Shown one piece after another: positions 2,520-18,929 of a stretch of 39,176 nucleotides of DNA. Below the pieces are notes generated by a model. That model did not search any database, was not told the DNA's origin, and was given only the letters and a program-made list of their open reading frames with translations. This DNA is from Candidatus Shapirobacteria bacterium. GTDB taxonomy: Bacteria; Patescibacteriota; Microgenomatia; UBA12405. The DNA lies in assembly GCA_028700625.1 (NCBI GenBank), contig JAQVSI010000008.1, positions 1-39,176 on the forward strand. The letters are read 5' to 3'. Within the stretch, counting starts at the first letter, position 1. Every line of letters begins with the position of its first letter. The position numbers and the translations under genes were made by a program.

Positions 2520-3272
2520 TTAAAAACCTCCGGCCTGATATCCCAAAAGAATTATCATATTTGCACTATCATCGTAAATAGCAATTCTTTTATTTACACC
2601 ATCGATTTTTATATTGGAAACACCGACTAAAATATCTCCAGTCAAAGATTGAGAAGAACCTGCCTTCAATAAAGCATCTGCCGCCCTTAAGTCATTGACT
2701 ATTTCCCATTGACCAGAAGCGATAGTTGTCGCCCCCACAGAAGCAGCTCGATAAGGTTTATTACTATCGTTTGTGTCATACCAAAGATCACCAATGGCCA
2801 AAGAAGTTGGGATTGCATCTTGAGCAAAGGTAGACATTGTGGTAGATACCACCAATTCCCATTCTCCTGCAACTATTTGATCCGCCCCTGCAATGGCGGC
2901 TCGATATAATTTATTACCATCATTAGTATCAAACCAAAGATCACCAATAGAAACCGAGGTAGGAATATCATCTTGTTTAAAAATATTTATTTTTGTATAA
3001 CCCGAACCACTTAAATCAATATCACTAGCCTTAATATGTCCATTCATCCACAATTGAAGTGGAGCATTTACAAAATCAGCAGCGCCTAAAGATAAACCAT
3101 TTTCATCGCAAATCATGGCATTATTTCCATAACCTCTTCTAAAACCATTTGAAAAAAACTGTAACCCTCCTAAATTTTGACCAAGAGCCTGTTCGCCAGT
3201 AATAGCAATAATAGCCAGCTCTTCTTCGGCTGACTTAACTGACATTTTTGGAGTTAAGTCGGTTGTTTTCAT
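2520..3272 (-). CDS. Putative tail fibre/structural protein with two tandem repeats
   Basis: ORF; IPTSVSIGDLWFDTNDGNKLYRAA and IPTSLAIGDLWYDTNDSNKPYRAA repeats. Confidence 0.6.
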   Translation of the reverse strand: MKTTDLTPKMSVKSAEEELAIIAITGEQALGQNLGGLQFFSNGFRRGYGNNAMICDENGLSLGAADFVNAPLQLWMNGHIKASDIDLSGSGYTKINIFKQDDIPTSVSIGDLWFDTNDGNKLYRAAIAGADQIVAGEWELVVSTTMSTFAQDAIPTSLAIGDLWYDTNDSNKPYRAASVGATTIASGQWEIVNDLRAADALLKAGSSQSLTGDILVGVSNIKIDGVNKRIAIYDDSANMIILLGYQAGGF

Positions 3273-3274
3273 AA

Positions 3275-4714
3275 TTACCTCTCTACAAAATTACCAAGAA
3301 CAATAATTTTTCTAATTGGACATTGAACACTAGAACTACCGTTTGAATAATCAACAAAACAACGAATATCCTCAACTGCTTTTAAGTTAATAGTTTTAAA
3401 AACGTGCATTGTCTTATTTTCACCAGTAACTTCAAAAGCATCCGTTATTGTCCCAGTCTCAGCTTGATTTCCTTCAATATAAATTTCTGCTTTTGCACCA
3501 GTAGCCAATGGTTTAGTAAAAACAATAATAGTATTAATATTCCCTAATTCTCGGCCTCTTGTAGTGCTAACAAAAATACTTTTCCACAAACTATCAACAG
3601 ATAATCCACTGAATTTAGCAATTCTGTGAGAATCAGTCCCATTCGTAGAGGCAATTATTGGAGTTCCAAAAGGAGCAGCAATTCCGCCAAGAGTGGCGTG
3701 ACCACCGTCTGCCAAAATAGAAATTTGGATAGGTAATTGACTAACTACTGATCCACAAGAAAGAATATTAGCCCCAGATAGAAATAATATTGTATTCATA
3801 TATAATGTTTTTTGCCTATGATTAGGTAAAGTTCCTGTAAAATATCTCAAAGGAGTTATTTGCCTACCATTTAACCATCCAATAGCAAAGAATCCCGATG
3901 TTTTATCTTCGTAAGCAACATAAAAAATACCATTTACAACGAAAGTGAATCCAATTCTTTGATTACCGACAGCAACTTCATCAGATAATTGATTAGAGGT
4001 GGCCGAAGCATCATATAAATAAATTTGACTTCTTCTTCCTTCACCATAATTTACCGATACATACCAAAGATTATTATAAAATTGAACATCAACAACTTCA
4101 GCCCCTTCTCCAAAATCTAATTTTTGAACATTGAGCAAGGCCTCCCCTTCTATATAAACTCCCAAATATCTACCGTTTCCAAATACAATAATATCCTCTT
4201 TAGCCGCGCAAGGATGGACTGCTTTTTCCAAAGCTTTATCAGTAGAACTTCCCCAATCAGGATCAATTGTTTCAGAAGCAATTGGCATTGTAGCAATATC
4301 ACCGCCAGAAGATTTATTGTAGAAAATAAAAATATTAGCACCGAGACGAATAATACTCTCCCCTTCAGTCATATCGGTTATTGTCTGTGGCCAACTAGGA
4401 GAACCACCACTAGAGATAGCAGTTGAGCTAAGTTTAAACAATTTCCCTGTTCCTACCGCATAAGTGACACTAGAGCTAACTGGCTTATCAAGAATAAATC
4501 TGATTAATTGATCAACAACTCCCGCCTGATTGCCATTTGTTAAATCAGCCAATGCCGGAGACTGTTGAAGAAAGCCCGGCAAAGAAATTATATCCGCCTT
4601 CATGTCACTAGCTTGACCATTATCACCAGTAAAAGTTTTATTGTCGATATGGGCCAAAGGGCTTAAACCCTCATTAAATAAGTCAAAATTTATTACAAAA
4701 TCATTATCTGCCAT
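3275..4714 (-). CDS. Putative beta-propeller-like tail/DNA-stabilisation protein
   Basis: ORF of 479 aa directly downstream of portal; repeated beta-strand blocks (P22 gp10-like position and style); family assignment is inference. Confidence 0.5.
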   Translation of the reverse strand: MADNDFVINFDLFNEGLSPLAHIDNKTFTGDNGQASDMKADIISLPGFLQQSPALADLTNGNQAGVVDQLIRFILDKPVSSSVTYAVGTGKLFKLSSTAISSGGSPSWPQTITDMTEGESIIRLGANIFIFYNKSSGGDIATMPIASETIDPDWGSSTDKALEKAVHPCAAKEDIIVFGNGRYLGVYIEGEALLNVQKLDFGEGAEVVDVQFYNNLWYVSVNYGEGRRSQIYLYDASATSNQLSDEVAVGNQRIGFTFVVNGIFYVAYEDKTSGFFAIGWLNGRQITPLRYFTGTLPNHRQKTLYMNTILFLSGANILSCGSVVSQLPIQISILADGGHATLGGIAAPFGTPIIASTNGTDSHRIAKFSGLSVDSLWKSIFVSTTRGRELGNINTIIVFTKPLATGAKAEIYIEGNQAETGTITDAFEVTGENKTMHVFKTINLKAVEDIRCFVDYSNGSSSVQCPIRKIIVLGNFVER

Positions 4715-11261: not shown

Positions 11262-11573
11262 ATGATTTTAAAAATCGCAGATCGTTTAAATTTAGCCAGA
11301 TTATTCCCTCAAGAGGGTGGCATTTTAACCCAGTTAACCGTTAAGGATATCGCCAAAAAGATTGAATTTTCCCAAGAGGAAATCAAGGATATCGAATTGA
11401 AACAAAACGGCCAAATGTTAAGATGGAATCCTAAAAAGGAAATAGAAATTGATGTTGAATTTTCTAGCGCGGAAATGAATTTCCTAAAAGAAAGAGTTGA
11501 AAGTTTAGATAAAGAACAAAAAGTTACTCAAGATATGGTGGATCTTTGCTTATTAATTAGAAATTTTAAATAA
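11262..11573 (+). CDS. Hypothetical phage protein
   Basis: ORF, 103 aa, in operon. Confidence 0.65.
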   Translation: MILKIADRLNLARLFPQEGGILTQLTVKDIAKKIEFSQEEIKDIELKQNGQMLRWNPKKEIEIDVEFSSAEMNFLKERVESLDKEQKVTQDMVDLCLLIRNFK

Positions 11574-11577
11574 AATT

Positions 11578-11898
11578 ATGGAAGAACAAACAATTGATCA
11601 AAAATTACAGGGATATTTTGATTTGAAAACTCAAATTGCTGTTTTGACAGAGAGTTTAAATAAAAAGAAAGAAGAAATAACTGAATTTTTGAAAAAACAA
11701 AATGGTATGAAATATAGTGTTGGAGATGTTGGTTTTTCACTTCGAGCCACTCCAATCTATCAATATACCAACACTGTTTTGGCGTTGGAAGAAAATGTCA
11801 AATTGATAGATGCCAAAATAAAAGAAGTTAAGAAAAATGAAATTGAATCTGGCGAGGCCAAAGTTGTCAATACTCAATACGCTGTTTATGTTAAATAA
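11578..11898 (+). CDS. Hypothetical coiled-coil protein
   Basis: ORF, 106 aa. Confidence 0.65.
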   Translation: MEEQTIDQKLQGYFDLKTQIAVLTESLNKKKEEITEFLKKQNGMKYSVGDVGFSLRATPIYQYTNTVLALEENVKLIDAKIKEVKKNEIESGEAKVVNTQYAVYVK

Positions 11899-11930
11899 TT
11901 ATTAAAAATTAAAAAAAAGGAGAAAAAATT

Positions 11931-12632
11931 ATGTTAGGAGAAAATCGACCAAAATTAGAAACAGGCGGAAATTTTGAGGCTTTTTCATCAGGTTTATATA
12001 CTTTGCAAATTGCAGATATAAATACTGCCATGGAATCGTATCAAAATAATGCGCCGGAAGAAAAGTTTAAATTTACTTTTTTTGTCTTAAATGACAACAA
12101 ATTTAAAAACGCGGAAGGAAAAGAGGTAACGACCAAAGGTAGAAAACTTTGGAAATCGTTTTCTAAATATGTCTCACCAAAGGCCAATCTTTTCCAATTT
12201 ATCATTTTATTAGATCCTAATTTTGCAAATTTAAGCACTGAAGAAAAACAAAATTATAATTTGGATGATCTAATCGGAAAACAAATAAACGCCCTTGTAA
12301 GTAAGGATAAAAGTAAAACTACTGATATTTCTTACAATAATATTAAATCTTTTGAAAAGTGTGAAACCGAATTAGAGGGAATCGAAGATTTGCCGGGGAA
12401 ACCAGTTGTAACAAATAAAGAATCTGTTCCCGTTACCGCTCCTGAAGAACCAACTTCTGAGAGTTCTGAGGATTTTGTAAAAAATCTTGAAAAACAAAGT
12501 AGTGAATTTAAGTCTGAAAAGACTGAAGTTACTCAACCAGAATTAAAAGAAGAGACTGAACAAGAGAAAAAAATAAGAGAAGCTAATGAGGCTATCGCAA
12601 AAATAAAAGCTGATGCCGGAATAAAAGATTAA
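11931..12632 (+). CDS. Putative ssDNA-binding/recombination-associated protein
   Basis: 233 aa ORF with strong AAGGAG RBS; FEAFSSGLYTLQIADI...KFKFTFFVLND... and acidic C-terminal tail; function is inference. Confidence 0.5.
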   Translation: MLGENRPKLETGGNFEAFSSGLYTLQIADINTAMESYQNNAPEEKFKFTFFVLNDNKFKNAEGKEVTTKGRKLWKSFSKYVSPKANLFQFIILLDPNFANLSTEEKQNYNLDDLIGKQINALVSKDKSKTTDISYNNIKSFEKCETELEGIEDLPGKPVVTNKESVPVTAPEEPTSESSEDFVKNLEKQSSEFKSEKTEVTQPELKEETEQEKKIREANEAIAKIKADAGIKD

Positions 12633-12636
12633 TTTC

Positions 12637-12822
12637 TTGCTTTACTCTTCAACGCACTGGTACGTTGGAGGGTAGCACAAGCAAATTATCAATTTTGCTC
12701 GTTCTTTAAATCAGACAAGTTTACTTGTTTGACTAGAACCTTTTAAAATTTTAATATTGGTGAAATACGTTGGCGGGAAACGGAAAAAGCGTAAGAAGCC
12801 GTCCTGATATTATAATTTTGTA
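12637..12822 (+). ncRNA. Unassigned structured RNA region upstream of the permuted tRNA
   Basis: Hairpin 12637-12684 (18 bp with one bulge), hairpin 12701-12739, helix 12745-12757/12807-12819 enclosing GGCGG/CCGTC pairing; no ORF. Confidence 0.5.
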
Positions 12823-12838
12823 CTTTAAATATTTTGAG

Positions 12839-12942
12839 CAGGGAAAGGTTGTTGGTTCGATTCCAACTATTATTTTGAAAGACAAATAATATAGCTCAAA
12901 GAGGAAACAAATTATTTCTTCGTGGTAGAGCGTTCCCCTGAT
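12839..12942 (+). tRNA. Circularly permuted tRNA gene (3' half first); anticodon probably GAT, junction-dependent
   Basis: GGGAA(12841-45) AGGTT(46-50) GTTGG-TTCGATT-CCAAC(51-67) TATTATT(68-74), 10-nt linker, AATAATA(12885-91) TA GCTC(94-97)...GG...GAGC(12928-31) G TTCCC(33-37). AATAATA/TATTATT and TTCCC/GGGAA are perfectly complementary. Confidence 0.8.
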
Positions 12943-12959
12943 CTAAGTATTTAAATATA

Positions 12960-13030
12960 TGCGAGGTAGTGTACGGAAGCACGTTGGGTTTCATCTCCCA
13001 TCGGAGCAAGTTCAACTCTTGCCCTCGCAA
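12960..13030 (+). tRNA. Conventional-order tRNA, anticodon ambiguous (TCA if 7-nt loop)
   Basis: TGCGAGG/CCTCGCA acceptor, D-arm GTGT-ACGGAA-GCAC, T-arm GCAAG-TTCAACT-CTTGC; anticodon stem imperfect; no encoded CCA. Confidence 0.75.
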
Positions 13031-13065
13031 CTTAATTATTAATTATTATCTTAAAAATAAAAAAT

Positions 13066-13455
13066 ATGAGCGAACAATTAACTTTAATAAATTGTGAAAG
13101 TTTAATAAACAGCGGTGTCGTCAGATTCGATATTCTTAAAAAAGAAACTGGTGATCTAAAATCTCAGTTGGATTCAATCTTAGAAAACGATGATGAATAT
13201 CAAAAACTTCGTGAAGATTCAAATAAAATTAGTAAGTTAAAGAAAATTTCCAAACAAAAAATAATGGCTCGACAAGAAGTAGCTGTTTTAAATGAAAAAA
13301 TTCGTGACGGAAATTCTCAACTAAAAGAACTTAAAACTGCTATTTCTGACTATTTGGCACAATATGTTATTTTGTCTGGAAGCAATCAAATTGAGTTAGC
13401 TGACGGAGTAATGAGACAAATTATTAGTTCAGCAAAATTAGTTAAATCTCTTTAA
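13066..13455 (+). CDS. Hypothetical coiled-coil protein
   Basis: ORF, 129 aa. Confidence 0.65.
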   Translation: MSEQLTLINCESLINSGVVRFDILKKETGDLKSQLDSILENDDEYQKLREDSNKISKLKKISKQKIMARQEVAVLNEKIRDGNSQLKELKTAISDYLAQYVILSGSNQIELADGVMRQIISSAKLVKSL

Positions 13456-13463
13456 ATATCTAT

Positions 13464-13492
13464 TTGACAATACTTAGATGTAAGTATATACT
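13464..13492 (+). promoter_or_regulatory. Promoter
   Basis: TTGACA (13464-13469) - 17 nt - TATACT (13487-13492). Confidence 0.7.
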
Positions 13493-17180: not shown

Positions 17181-17461
17181 AATTATATTTGCACTTTTTG
17201 AAACAAAAAATAATTAAATTTTTATTAAAAAAATTAGATCAGAATTATATTGAAAAATATATTGTAAACTCTGACAAATTGACAATAAACTTAAAAGGTT
17301 TAATTCCAAAAGATAATACTTGGTATAACCTTGCATTTACTTTTAGTTTTTGGATGAAAAACGGAAGTAAGAAAGAAAGTAAATTTGAAGATATGGCAAT
17401 TTTTAAGAACGGATTAAAACAAAAAGACATTAAAAAATTATTTAAAATTACCCAAAAATAA
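17177..17461 (+). CDS. Hypothetical protein (start trimmed from the tracked ORF at 17129)
   Basis: ATGA overlap with previous gene; MKLYLHFLKQK... Confidence 0.5.
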   Translation: MKLYLHFLKQKIIKFLLKKLDQNYIEKYIVNSDKLTINLKGLIPKDNTWYNLAFTFSFWMKNGSKKESKFEDMAIFKNGLKQKDIKKLFKITQK

Positions 17462-17726: not shown

Positions 17727-18929
17727 ATGGAAGTAATAAATACAGAAAAACAACCAATTAAAATTTGGTCAAAAAATACAGAAGCAGGAGCAATTAGCCA
17801 ATTGAAAAATTTGGCTAATTTACCTTTTATTCATAAATGGGTTTGTGCTATGCCAGATTGTCATCAAGGCTATGGTATGCCTATTGGTGGAGTTATTGCT
17901 ACCGAAGGAGTAATTATTCCAAATGCTGTTGGAGTTGATATTGGGTGTGGTATGTGTGCAGTTAAAACTTCTTTAACTGAAATTAGTCAAGATCAATTAA
18001 AAGAAATAATGGCTATGATTAGAAAAACAATTCCTGTTGGATTTAAACATCATTCTAAAAAACAAGATGAAAGTTTAATGCCAAAAGTTCCAAATTCTAA
18101 ATTTTATTCAGAAGAACATTTAAGAATAGAAATGCCTATTTGTGGACAAGAATATCAAAATGCATTAACTCAAATTGGCACTCTTGGTGGTGGAAATCAT
18201 TTTATTGAAATACAAAAAGGTGATGATGGTCATATTTGGATAATGATCCATAGTGGATCAAGAAATTTGGGATATCAAGTAGCGAATCACTACAATAAAG
18301 TTGCACAAGAATTATGTAGAAAATGGTATTCAAATATACCAGAATTTCACGGAGAAGATGGTTTGGCATTTTTACCTATTGATACTAAAGAAGGTCAAGA
18401 CTATTTAAACGAAATGCAATATTGTGTAGATTTTGCACTAGCAAATAGACTTTTAATGATGAATAGGATAATGGAATCATTTGAAAAAATAATTGGAAAA
18501 GGTAATTTTGGTAGTGTCCAAGATATTATAAATATTGCTCACAATTATGCTTCAATAGAGAATCATTTTGGAAAAAATGTTTGGGTTCACAGGAAAGGAG
18601 CAACCAAAGCATCGAAAGGTTTAGTTGGGATAATTCCCGGCTCAATGGGAACTTCGAGTTATATTGTTGAAGGTCTTGGAAATCCTGAAAGTTTTGAAAG
18701 TTGTAGTCATGGTGCTGGTCGTAAAATGGGAAGAAATGAAGCAGTAAAAACTTTAGATTTAAAACACGAACAAGAAATAATGAAAGGTATTTTAGGAGCG
18801 CCAAGAACTAAAGAAGATCTTCAAGAAGCACCGGGAGCATATAAAGATATTTTAGACGTGATGGAAAATCAAAAAGATTTAGTTAAAATTTTAGTTGAAT
18901 TAAAACCTTTAGCAGTTATTAAGGGATAA
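17727..18929 (+). CDS. rtcB: RtcB-type RNA ligase (2',3'-cyclic phosphate/3'-P to 5'-OH)
   Basis: VGVDIGCGM, GTLGGGNHF, HSGSRNLG, AHNYA, VHRKGATKA, PGSMGTSSY, SHGAGR - the RtcB metal/GMP-binding motifs are all present, full length 400 aa. Confidence 0.95.
   Translation: MEVINTEKQPIKIWSKNTEAGAISQLKNLANLPFIHKWVCAMPDCHQGYGMPIGGVIATEGVIIPNAVGVDIGCGMCAVKTSLTEISQDQLKEIMAMIRKTIPVGFKHHSKKQDESLMPKVPNSKFYSEEHLRIEMPICGQEYQNALTQIGTLGGGNHFIEIQKGDDGHIWIMIHSGSRNLGYQVANHYNKVAQELCRKWYSNIPEFHGEDGLAFLPIDTKEGQDYLNEMQYCVDFALANRLLMMNRIMESFEKIIGKGNFGSVQDIINIAHNYASIENHFGKNVWVHRKGATKASKGLVGIIPGSMGTSSYIVEGLGNPESFESCSHGAGRKMGRNEAVKTLDLKHEQEIMKGILGAPRTKEDLQEAPGAYKDILDVMENQKDLVKILVELKPLAVIKG

Follow-up and report, generated by a model that had tools for sequence, protein, structure and literature searches.

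A phage RtcB ligase and a YrlA-like RNA, with no Ro gene detected, on a contig from Candidatus Shapirobacteria

Introduction

What would a phage gain from encoding an RNA ligase together with an RNA whose tRNA arms stand in permuted order? The window analysed here, a stretch of 39,176 nt from Candidatus Shapirobacteria, carries both: an rtcB gene and a tRNA-like RNA on the same strand, which precedes rtcB by 4.8 kb and about a dozen ORFs. A sequence-only reading of the locus had proposed a self-contained pathway in which the RNA is a permuted tRNA that RtcB must ligate across the anticodon loop, and had offered repair of tRNAs cut by host nucleases as the alternative.

Two bodies of knowledge bear on this question. 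tRNA ends left by host ribonucleases, with a 2',3'-cyclic phosphate and a 5'-OH, are RtcB substrates, and Y RNAs are known for associating with Ro proteins. Y RNAs of the YrlA type are 90-150 nt long, with a large stem formed by both ends and tRNA-like D, T and acceptor arms (PMC8394870), and in some bacteria they are encoded with rtcA-rtcB (PMC8394870, PMC7790460). Work on the rsr-yrlBA-rtcBA operon describes tRNA fragments with a cyclic phosphate, and YrlA has been suggested to act as a competitive inhibitor of a nuclease (PMC7790460).

Results

The window is a phage contig with a single rtcB gene

The window is one contig of an 813-kb, 55-contig genome bin that is 96.65% complete. Searching its proteins against phrog profiles revealed a TerL, a major head protein and a tail fibre protein, and the contig thus comes from a tailed phage. 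Its RtcB is the only PF01139 copy in the bin. A profile search found no TROVE (PF05731) gene in the bin, so that the defining Ro partner of a Y RNA is missing. Among the window proteins scanned, neither an archease nor a splicing endonuclease gave a Pfam match, in agreement with the sequence-only reading, and RtcA and RtcR gave none either. In the TerL relatives G187, G195 and G190 the structural genes are conserved at ~60-78%; the early region carrying RtcB and the RNA is not common to the window and these relatives. G190 has a truncated RtcB at a contig end.

The rtcB ORF runs from an ATG start to a TAA stop and encodes 400 aa. The protein matches the complete Pfam model (PF01139, 398.6 bits against a cut-off of 27, model positions 1-426 of 426) and phrog_1075 (E 4e-128), while the NCBIfam RtcB models match with scores below their strict cut-offs. 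It aligns end to end with the solved RtcB of P. horikoshii (1uc2). The motifs comprise D71 and C74 (DIGCGM), N157/H158 (GGGNHF), H175 (HSGSRN), H272 (AHNYAS), H327 (SHGAGR) and K399, with D71, C74, H158, H175, H272 and H327 aligned to 1uc2, and we take the motif residues to correspond to the metal ligands and the guanylylated histidine. Judged by its sequence, the RtcB is real and full length and its catalytic motifs are intact, as had been proposed.

RtcB is frequent in phages, with 659 of 50,697 records, and was found in 36 of 374 host-class genomes. In the RtcB tree, the window protein groups only with phage sequences (a clade of 6 rows, support 96/97) and lies far from the sampled RtcBs of the host class, a placement that indicates phage ancestry. 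Of the 38 phage loci scanned, 14 have tRNA genes no more than 10 kb from RtcB, which fits a role in RNA repair. In one phage contig with RtcB (L007), the tRNA-Ser(CGA) predicted at 17210-17387 contains a 104-nt intron.

Table 1. Positions of the features discussed, in window coordinates.
Feature	Position	Strand	Basis
rtcB, 3'-phosphate/2',3'-cyclic phosphate RNA ligase, 400 aa	17727..18929	+	PF01139, phrog_1075, 1uc2 alignment, motifs
YrlA-like RNA (permuted-tRNA topology), ~132 nt	12824..12955	+	R1 match, fold
End stem, 5' strand (partner 12936-12955)	12824..12843	+	Duplex energy
End stem, 3' strand (partner 12824-12843)	12936..12955	+	Duplex energy
Anticodon-like stem, 3' strand GGGAA (partner TTCCC 12933-12937), tRNA register	12841..12845	+	
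Anticodon-like stem, 5' strand TTCCC	12933..12937	+	
T arm GTTGG-TTCGATT-CCAAC	12851..12867	+	Permuted-order scan, R1
Acceptor-like hairpin TATTATT-(TTGAAAGACA)-AATAATA	12868..12891	+	Permuted-order scan, fold
D arm GCTC...GAGC, TGGTA in loop	12894..12931	+	ARAGORN, permuted-order scan, R1
D-loop insert, 23 nt, 7-bp hairpin	12900..12922	+	ARAGORN, fold
Conventional-order tRNA, anticodon region abnormal	12960..13031	+	ARAGORN, Rfam; directly downstream of RNA

The RNA has all tRNA arms but does not rejoin into a normal tRNA

ARAGORN and Rfam, run on the whole window, listed the conventional tRNA and not the permuted RNA. A scan for tRNA arms in permuted order found 21 of 21 possible pairs at 12841-12937 and scored them at 20. 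None of 20 composition-matched first-order Markov sequences scored above 18, and the tRNA-like element is genuine. Folded alone, the region forms one closed structure (-34.3 kcal/mol, z -2.7) comprising 20 nt of end stem on each side, the T arm, the acceptor-like hairpin, the D arm and the D-loop hairpin, and enforcing the tRNA-like core leaves this energy unchanged. In the predicted fold, the end stem has 18 bp, two 1x1 mismatches and no 3-nt bulges, and no bulge-helix-bulge appears at the RNA ends. Its duplex energy of -18.7 kcal/mol was matched by 0 of 2000 shuffles and 0 of 979 other phage windows. The anticodon-like stem GGGAA/TTCCC competes with the pairing CAGGG/CCCTG of the end stem.

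As in a permuted tRNA, the 3' half precedes the 5' half and all four stems pair. Rejoining the halves did not yield a normal tRNA: ARAGORN reads a tRNA-Ile(GAU) or a tRNA-Leu(GAG) only with the 23-nt D-loop insert removed, the anticodon-loop junction is ambiguous, with C37 in the GAU reading, a U stands at the discriminator place and CCA is absent after the acceptor. Such an arrangement can also arise as an artefact from tandem tRNAs, the 3' half of one preceding the 5' half of the next, and this is indeed the case in L013, L104, phiCbK and host-class genomes. We rejected it for the window RNA because neither half has a normal partner. Self-cleaving ribozymes flanking the RNA were likewise discarded, as Rfam gave no match. 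DNA homologues of the region were absent from phages and host-class genomes beyond short tRNA matches.

The tRNA downstream is Glu-like and can be drawn with a 4-bp anticodon stem and an 8-nt loop, TTTCATCT; ARAGORN reads its anticodon as UCA. A tie to UGA recoding was considered and rejected, TGA being a stop in 7 of the 55 ORFs tested. On the other side of the RNA, the non-coding stretch 12633-12830 folds into several hairpins, far better than its shuffles do (z -3.8), and has no Rfam match. Its reading as a group I permuted intron-exon element was rejected on the wrong motif order and the lack of an Rfam intron match.

The permuted order is that of a mature YrlA RNA

The RNA presents its arms in the YrlA order of T arm, closed acceptor hairpin and D arm, and its end stem and length of ~132 nt agree with those of YrlA. 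A covariance model built from three Streptomyces phage copies with the window RNA left out (R1) matches the window at 12851-12931 (30.4 bits, E 5.7e-7) and finds nothing else convincing there. R1 also scores tandem-tRNA junctions, at 25-63 bits, so that the score alone is little proof; the window match is not such a junction. The Rfam YrlA model (RF02553) does not match the window RNA even at E 10. The sequence TACTT at 12821-12825 is placed as in Ro-linked copies, with no evident opposing loop.

Below its cut-off, RF02553 detects the same topology in Streptomyces, Xanthomonas and Microbacterium phages, and it scores 39-47 bits at clostridial rtcB loci; all RF02553 scores of these related phage and clostridial copies are under 69 bits. 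A pattern search revealed a further such RNA at 12184-12261 of a 149-kb phage contig (L096) in which neither RtcB nor TROVE was matched. This RNA fits exactly between two tRNA-Ala genes, and its ends could come from the processing of its neighbours. Used as a query, it led to unannotated stretches upstream of Ro-like genes in the Streptomyces phages BRock, Kenrey, Comrade and Moab, and RF02553 also matches three copies in Xanthomonas phage Olaya and one in Microbacterium phage Percival. TROVE is present in BRock, Kenrey, Comrade, Moab and Olaya, that is in five of the nine phage records with matches; among these five and Percival, only Percival has RtcB. In Olaya (L101), three unannotated YrlA-like RNAs lie at 1996-2580, and a 'hypothetical protein' with a TROVE domain is encoded downstream at 2636-3955.

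Since the Ro-linked copies and the published descriptions of YrlA share this topology, the permuted order is the normal, mature form of a Y RNA. The window RNA has the YrlA architecture and probably works like a YrlA, as judged from its predicted structure. We did not file it as YrlA, because RF02553 gives no match and no Ro gene is present.

YrlA-like RNAs recur next to rtcB in phages and bacteria

We then compared rtcB loci elsewhere, each bounded by its flank length and contig ends. Among 47 IMG/VR RtcB loci, a free core, as opposed to a tRNA-tRNA junction, is clear only in L019, where TROVE is also present; the matches that a scan of 27 whole contigs added each run into a called tRNA at one end or both. 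The RNA is also missing from the closest relatives of the window RtcB. With most phage RtcB loci and these relatives lacking it, RtcB does not require the RNA. In the Microbacterium phages Percival, Floof and Gretchen, the distance between RtcB and the RNA is ~1.8-2.1 kb, and ACCA is encoded after the acceptor.

A free copy was found at 8 of 40 bacterial RtcB loci. In L191, L192, L198, L200 and L205 (Lachnospiraceae, Eubacterium), the core follows rtcB by ~155-360 nt on the same strand, and in L179, L183 and L175 the copy lies within 2.7 kb of rtcB. ARAGORN partly miscalls the L191 copy as a tRNA, and Rfam scores it at 39 bits as YrlA. The acceptor hairpins of the clostridial rtcB-adjacent copies have 4-5 bp and short closing loops such as UUCG, and thus could not become tRNA acceptor ends. 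No TROVE match was found among the long ORFs scanned at the eight loci. Band-7 genes adjoin several of them, and at the clostridial loci checked the RNA lies between rtcB and the band-7 gene. L183 has a 715-aa protein with no Pfam match (11322-13469) between rtcB and its YrlA-like RNA.

Together, rtcB and a YrlA-like RNA with no Ro gene detected occur in Microbacterium phages, Lachnospiraceae and Bacteroidales, in several RtcB lineages. Mapped onto the RtcB tree, the presence of a YrlA-like RNA nearby requires a minimum of 5 changes of state, a rough count of independent gains since the Ro-bearing phage L019 is among the rows and near-copies are present. The link is stronger in the reverse direction, from a copy of the RNA to a nearby rtcB, than from RtcB to the RNA. 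The association is probably meaningful. The expectation that a survey would show RtcB and permuted-tRNA-like RNAs occurring together was borne out in part: the pairing recurs in the three Microbacterium phages and at the bacterial loci, while most phage RtcB loci do without the RNA.

The flanks of rtcB-linked copies pair in the anticodon register

Of the rtcB-linked Ro-less copies, with L096 and the near-copies Percival and Floof included, 9 of 10 have flanks that form an anticodon stem in tRNA register, against 6 of 90 when flanks are swapped between copies. The register was chosen after the window RNA had been seen, so that the window is not independent evidence; the other copies are. Ro-linked copies pair in this register in 2 of 10 cases with their own flanks and in 2 of 90 with swapped ones. 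The pairing sequences differ in most of the rtcB-linked copies. This contrast of own and swapped flanks amounts to compensatory variation, and is suggestive of selection on an anticodon-like stem in these rtcB-linked copies.

Discussion

We favour, with moderate confidence, the view that the locus encodes an RNA-repair ligase and a YrlA-type tRNA mimic, forming a Ro-less counterpart of the rsr-yrlA-rtcB repair module. The phage RtcB would rejoin cut RNAs, chiefly tRNAs cleaved in the anticodon loop by host ribonucleases, and repair of this kind is the better grounded of the two roles suggested earlier. The RNA would work as transcribed, closed by its end stem and neither cut nor circularised, as a decoy for anticodon nucleases or as a scaffold for a ribonuclease. 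For a decoy or competitive inhibitor, an anticodon-like stem on the mimic would be fitting. Expression of rtcB and of the RNA, tRNA repair by RtcB in this host and the part played by the mimic are inferences. The lack of a homologue of the window RNA among the TerL relatives of the phage counts against this module, as do the failure of RF02553 to match the RNA, the missing TROVE gene, the 4.8 kb between RtcB and the RNA, and the scores that R1 also gives to tandem-tRNA junctions.

A less likely explanation is that RtcB and the RNA are unrelated passengers, the RNA being either a tRNA in decay or a tRNA mimic with no link to RtcB. RtcB is common in phages (the 659 records above) and nearly always stands without the RNA in the sample of 47 IMG/VR loci, the two features of the window are 4.8 kb apart, and the D-loop insert could be a sign of decay. 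Against this stand the end stem and arms of the window RNA, all of them intact, and the repetition of the linkage in several RtcB lineages, with the two ~155-360 nt apart on one strand in clostridia.

The RNA is improbable as a permuted pre-tRNA whose flanks are cut, which RtcB circularises across the anticodon loop and which RNase P and RNase Z then open into a linear tRNA. To our knowledge, this would be the first such pathway in a bacterial system. Every arm does pair in permuted order, the rejoined halves without the insert read as tRNA-Ile(GAU) or tRNA-Leu(GAG), RtcB lies on the strand of the RNA, and Percival, Floof and Gretchen pair RtcB with such an RNA that encodes ACCA. A precedent for maturation via a circle exists in algal permuted tRNAs (PMC3978253). 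However, the Ro-linked loci have the same topology in the mature Y RNA, and the copies in Streptomyces and Xanthomonas phages occur without RtcB, so that the topology does not call for ligation; the 4-5 bp hairpins of the clostridial copies could not form acceptor ends. In the window RNA, the 23-nt insert, the U discriminator, the missing CCA, C37 in the GAU reading, the ambiguous loop junction and the continuous 18-bp end stem all fit poorly. Nor does its fold offer a bulge-helix-bulge, the window proteins a splicing endonuclease, or the closest RtcB relatives such an RNA. The earlier inference that the two genes belong together thus fares better than the cleave, circularise and trim pathway built upon it. 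That RtcB acts on another target, such as cleaved rRNA or the tRNA at 12960, with the RNA regulating that response, is very improbable: a passage of PMC10272220 cites bacterial RtcB repair of 16S rRNA and tRNAs, and the window holds no direct evidence for it.

The Ro-less module we favour resembles the rsr-yrlBA-rtcBA operon of Salmonella Typhimurium in combining RtcB with a YrlA-type tRNA mimic (PMC7790460, PMC8394870). It differs in that phage and bin lack Rsr and that 4.8 kb separate rtcB from the RNA; rtcB, YrlA and rsr do not form one operon here. The RNA shares with YrlA (RF02553) the size of 90-150 nt, the long end stem and the T-acceptor-D order, but has neither an Rfam match nor a clear Ro-binding loop, and adds the 23-nt D-loop hairpin and the anticodon-like stem in tRNA register. 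With the permuted tRNA genes of red and green algae and Thermofilum it shares the leading 3' half and a short linker between the acceptor strands; unlike these, it has a D-loop insert and neither a predicted bulge-helix-bulge nor a splicing endonuclease in the window. Its RtcB belongs to the same enzyme family as other phage RtcBs (phrog_1075), including gp68 of Microbacterium phage Percival. Percival, Floof and Gretchen also have a free YrlA-like RNA 1.8-2.1 kb from RtcB, but their RtcBs lie in another part of the tree.

The occurrence of a YrlA-like RNA with rtcB and with no Ro gene detected, together with a compensated anticodon-like stem, suggests that tRNA mimics can serve RNA repair independently of Ro. 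Searches for bacterial permuted tRNAs will also pick up Y RNAs.
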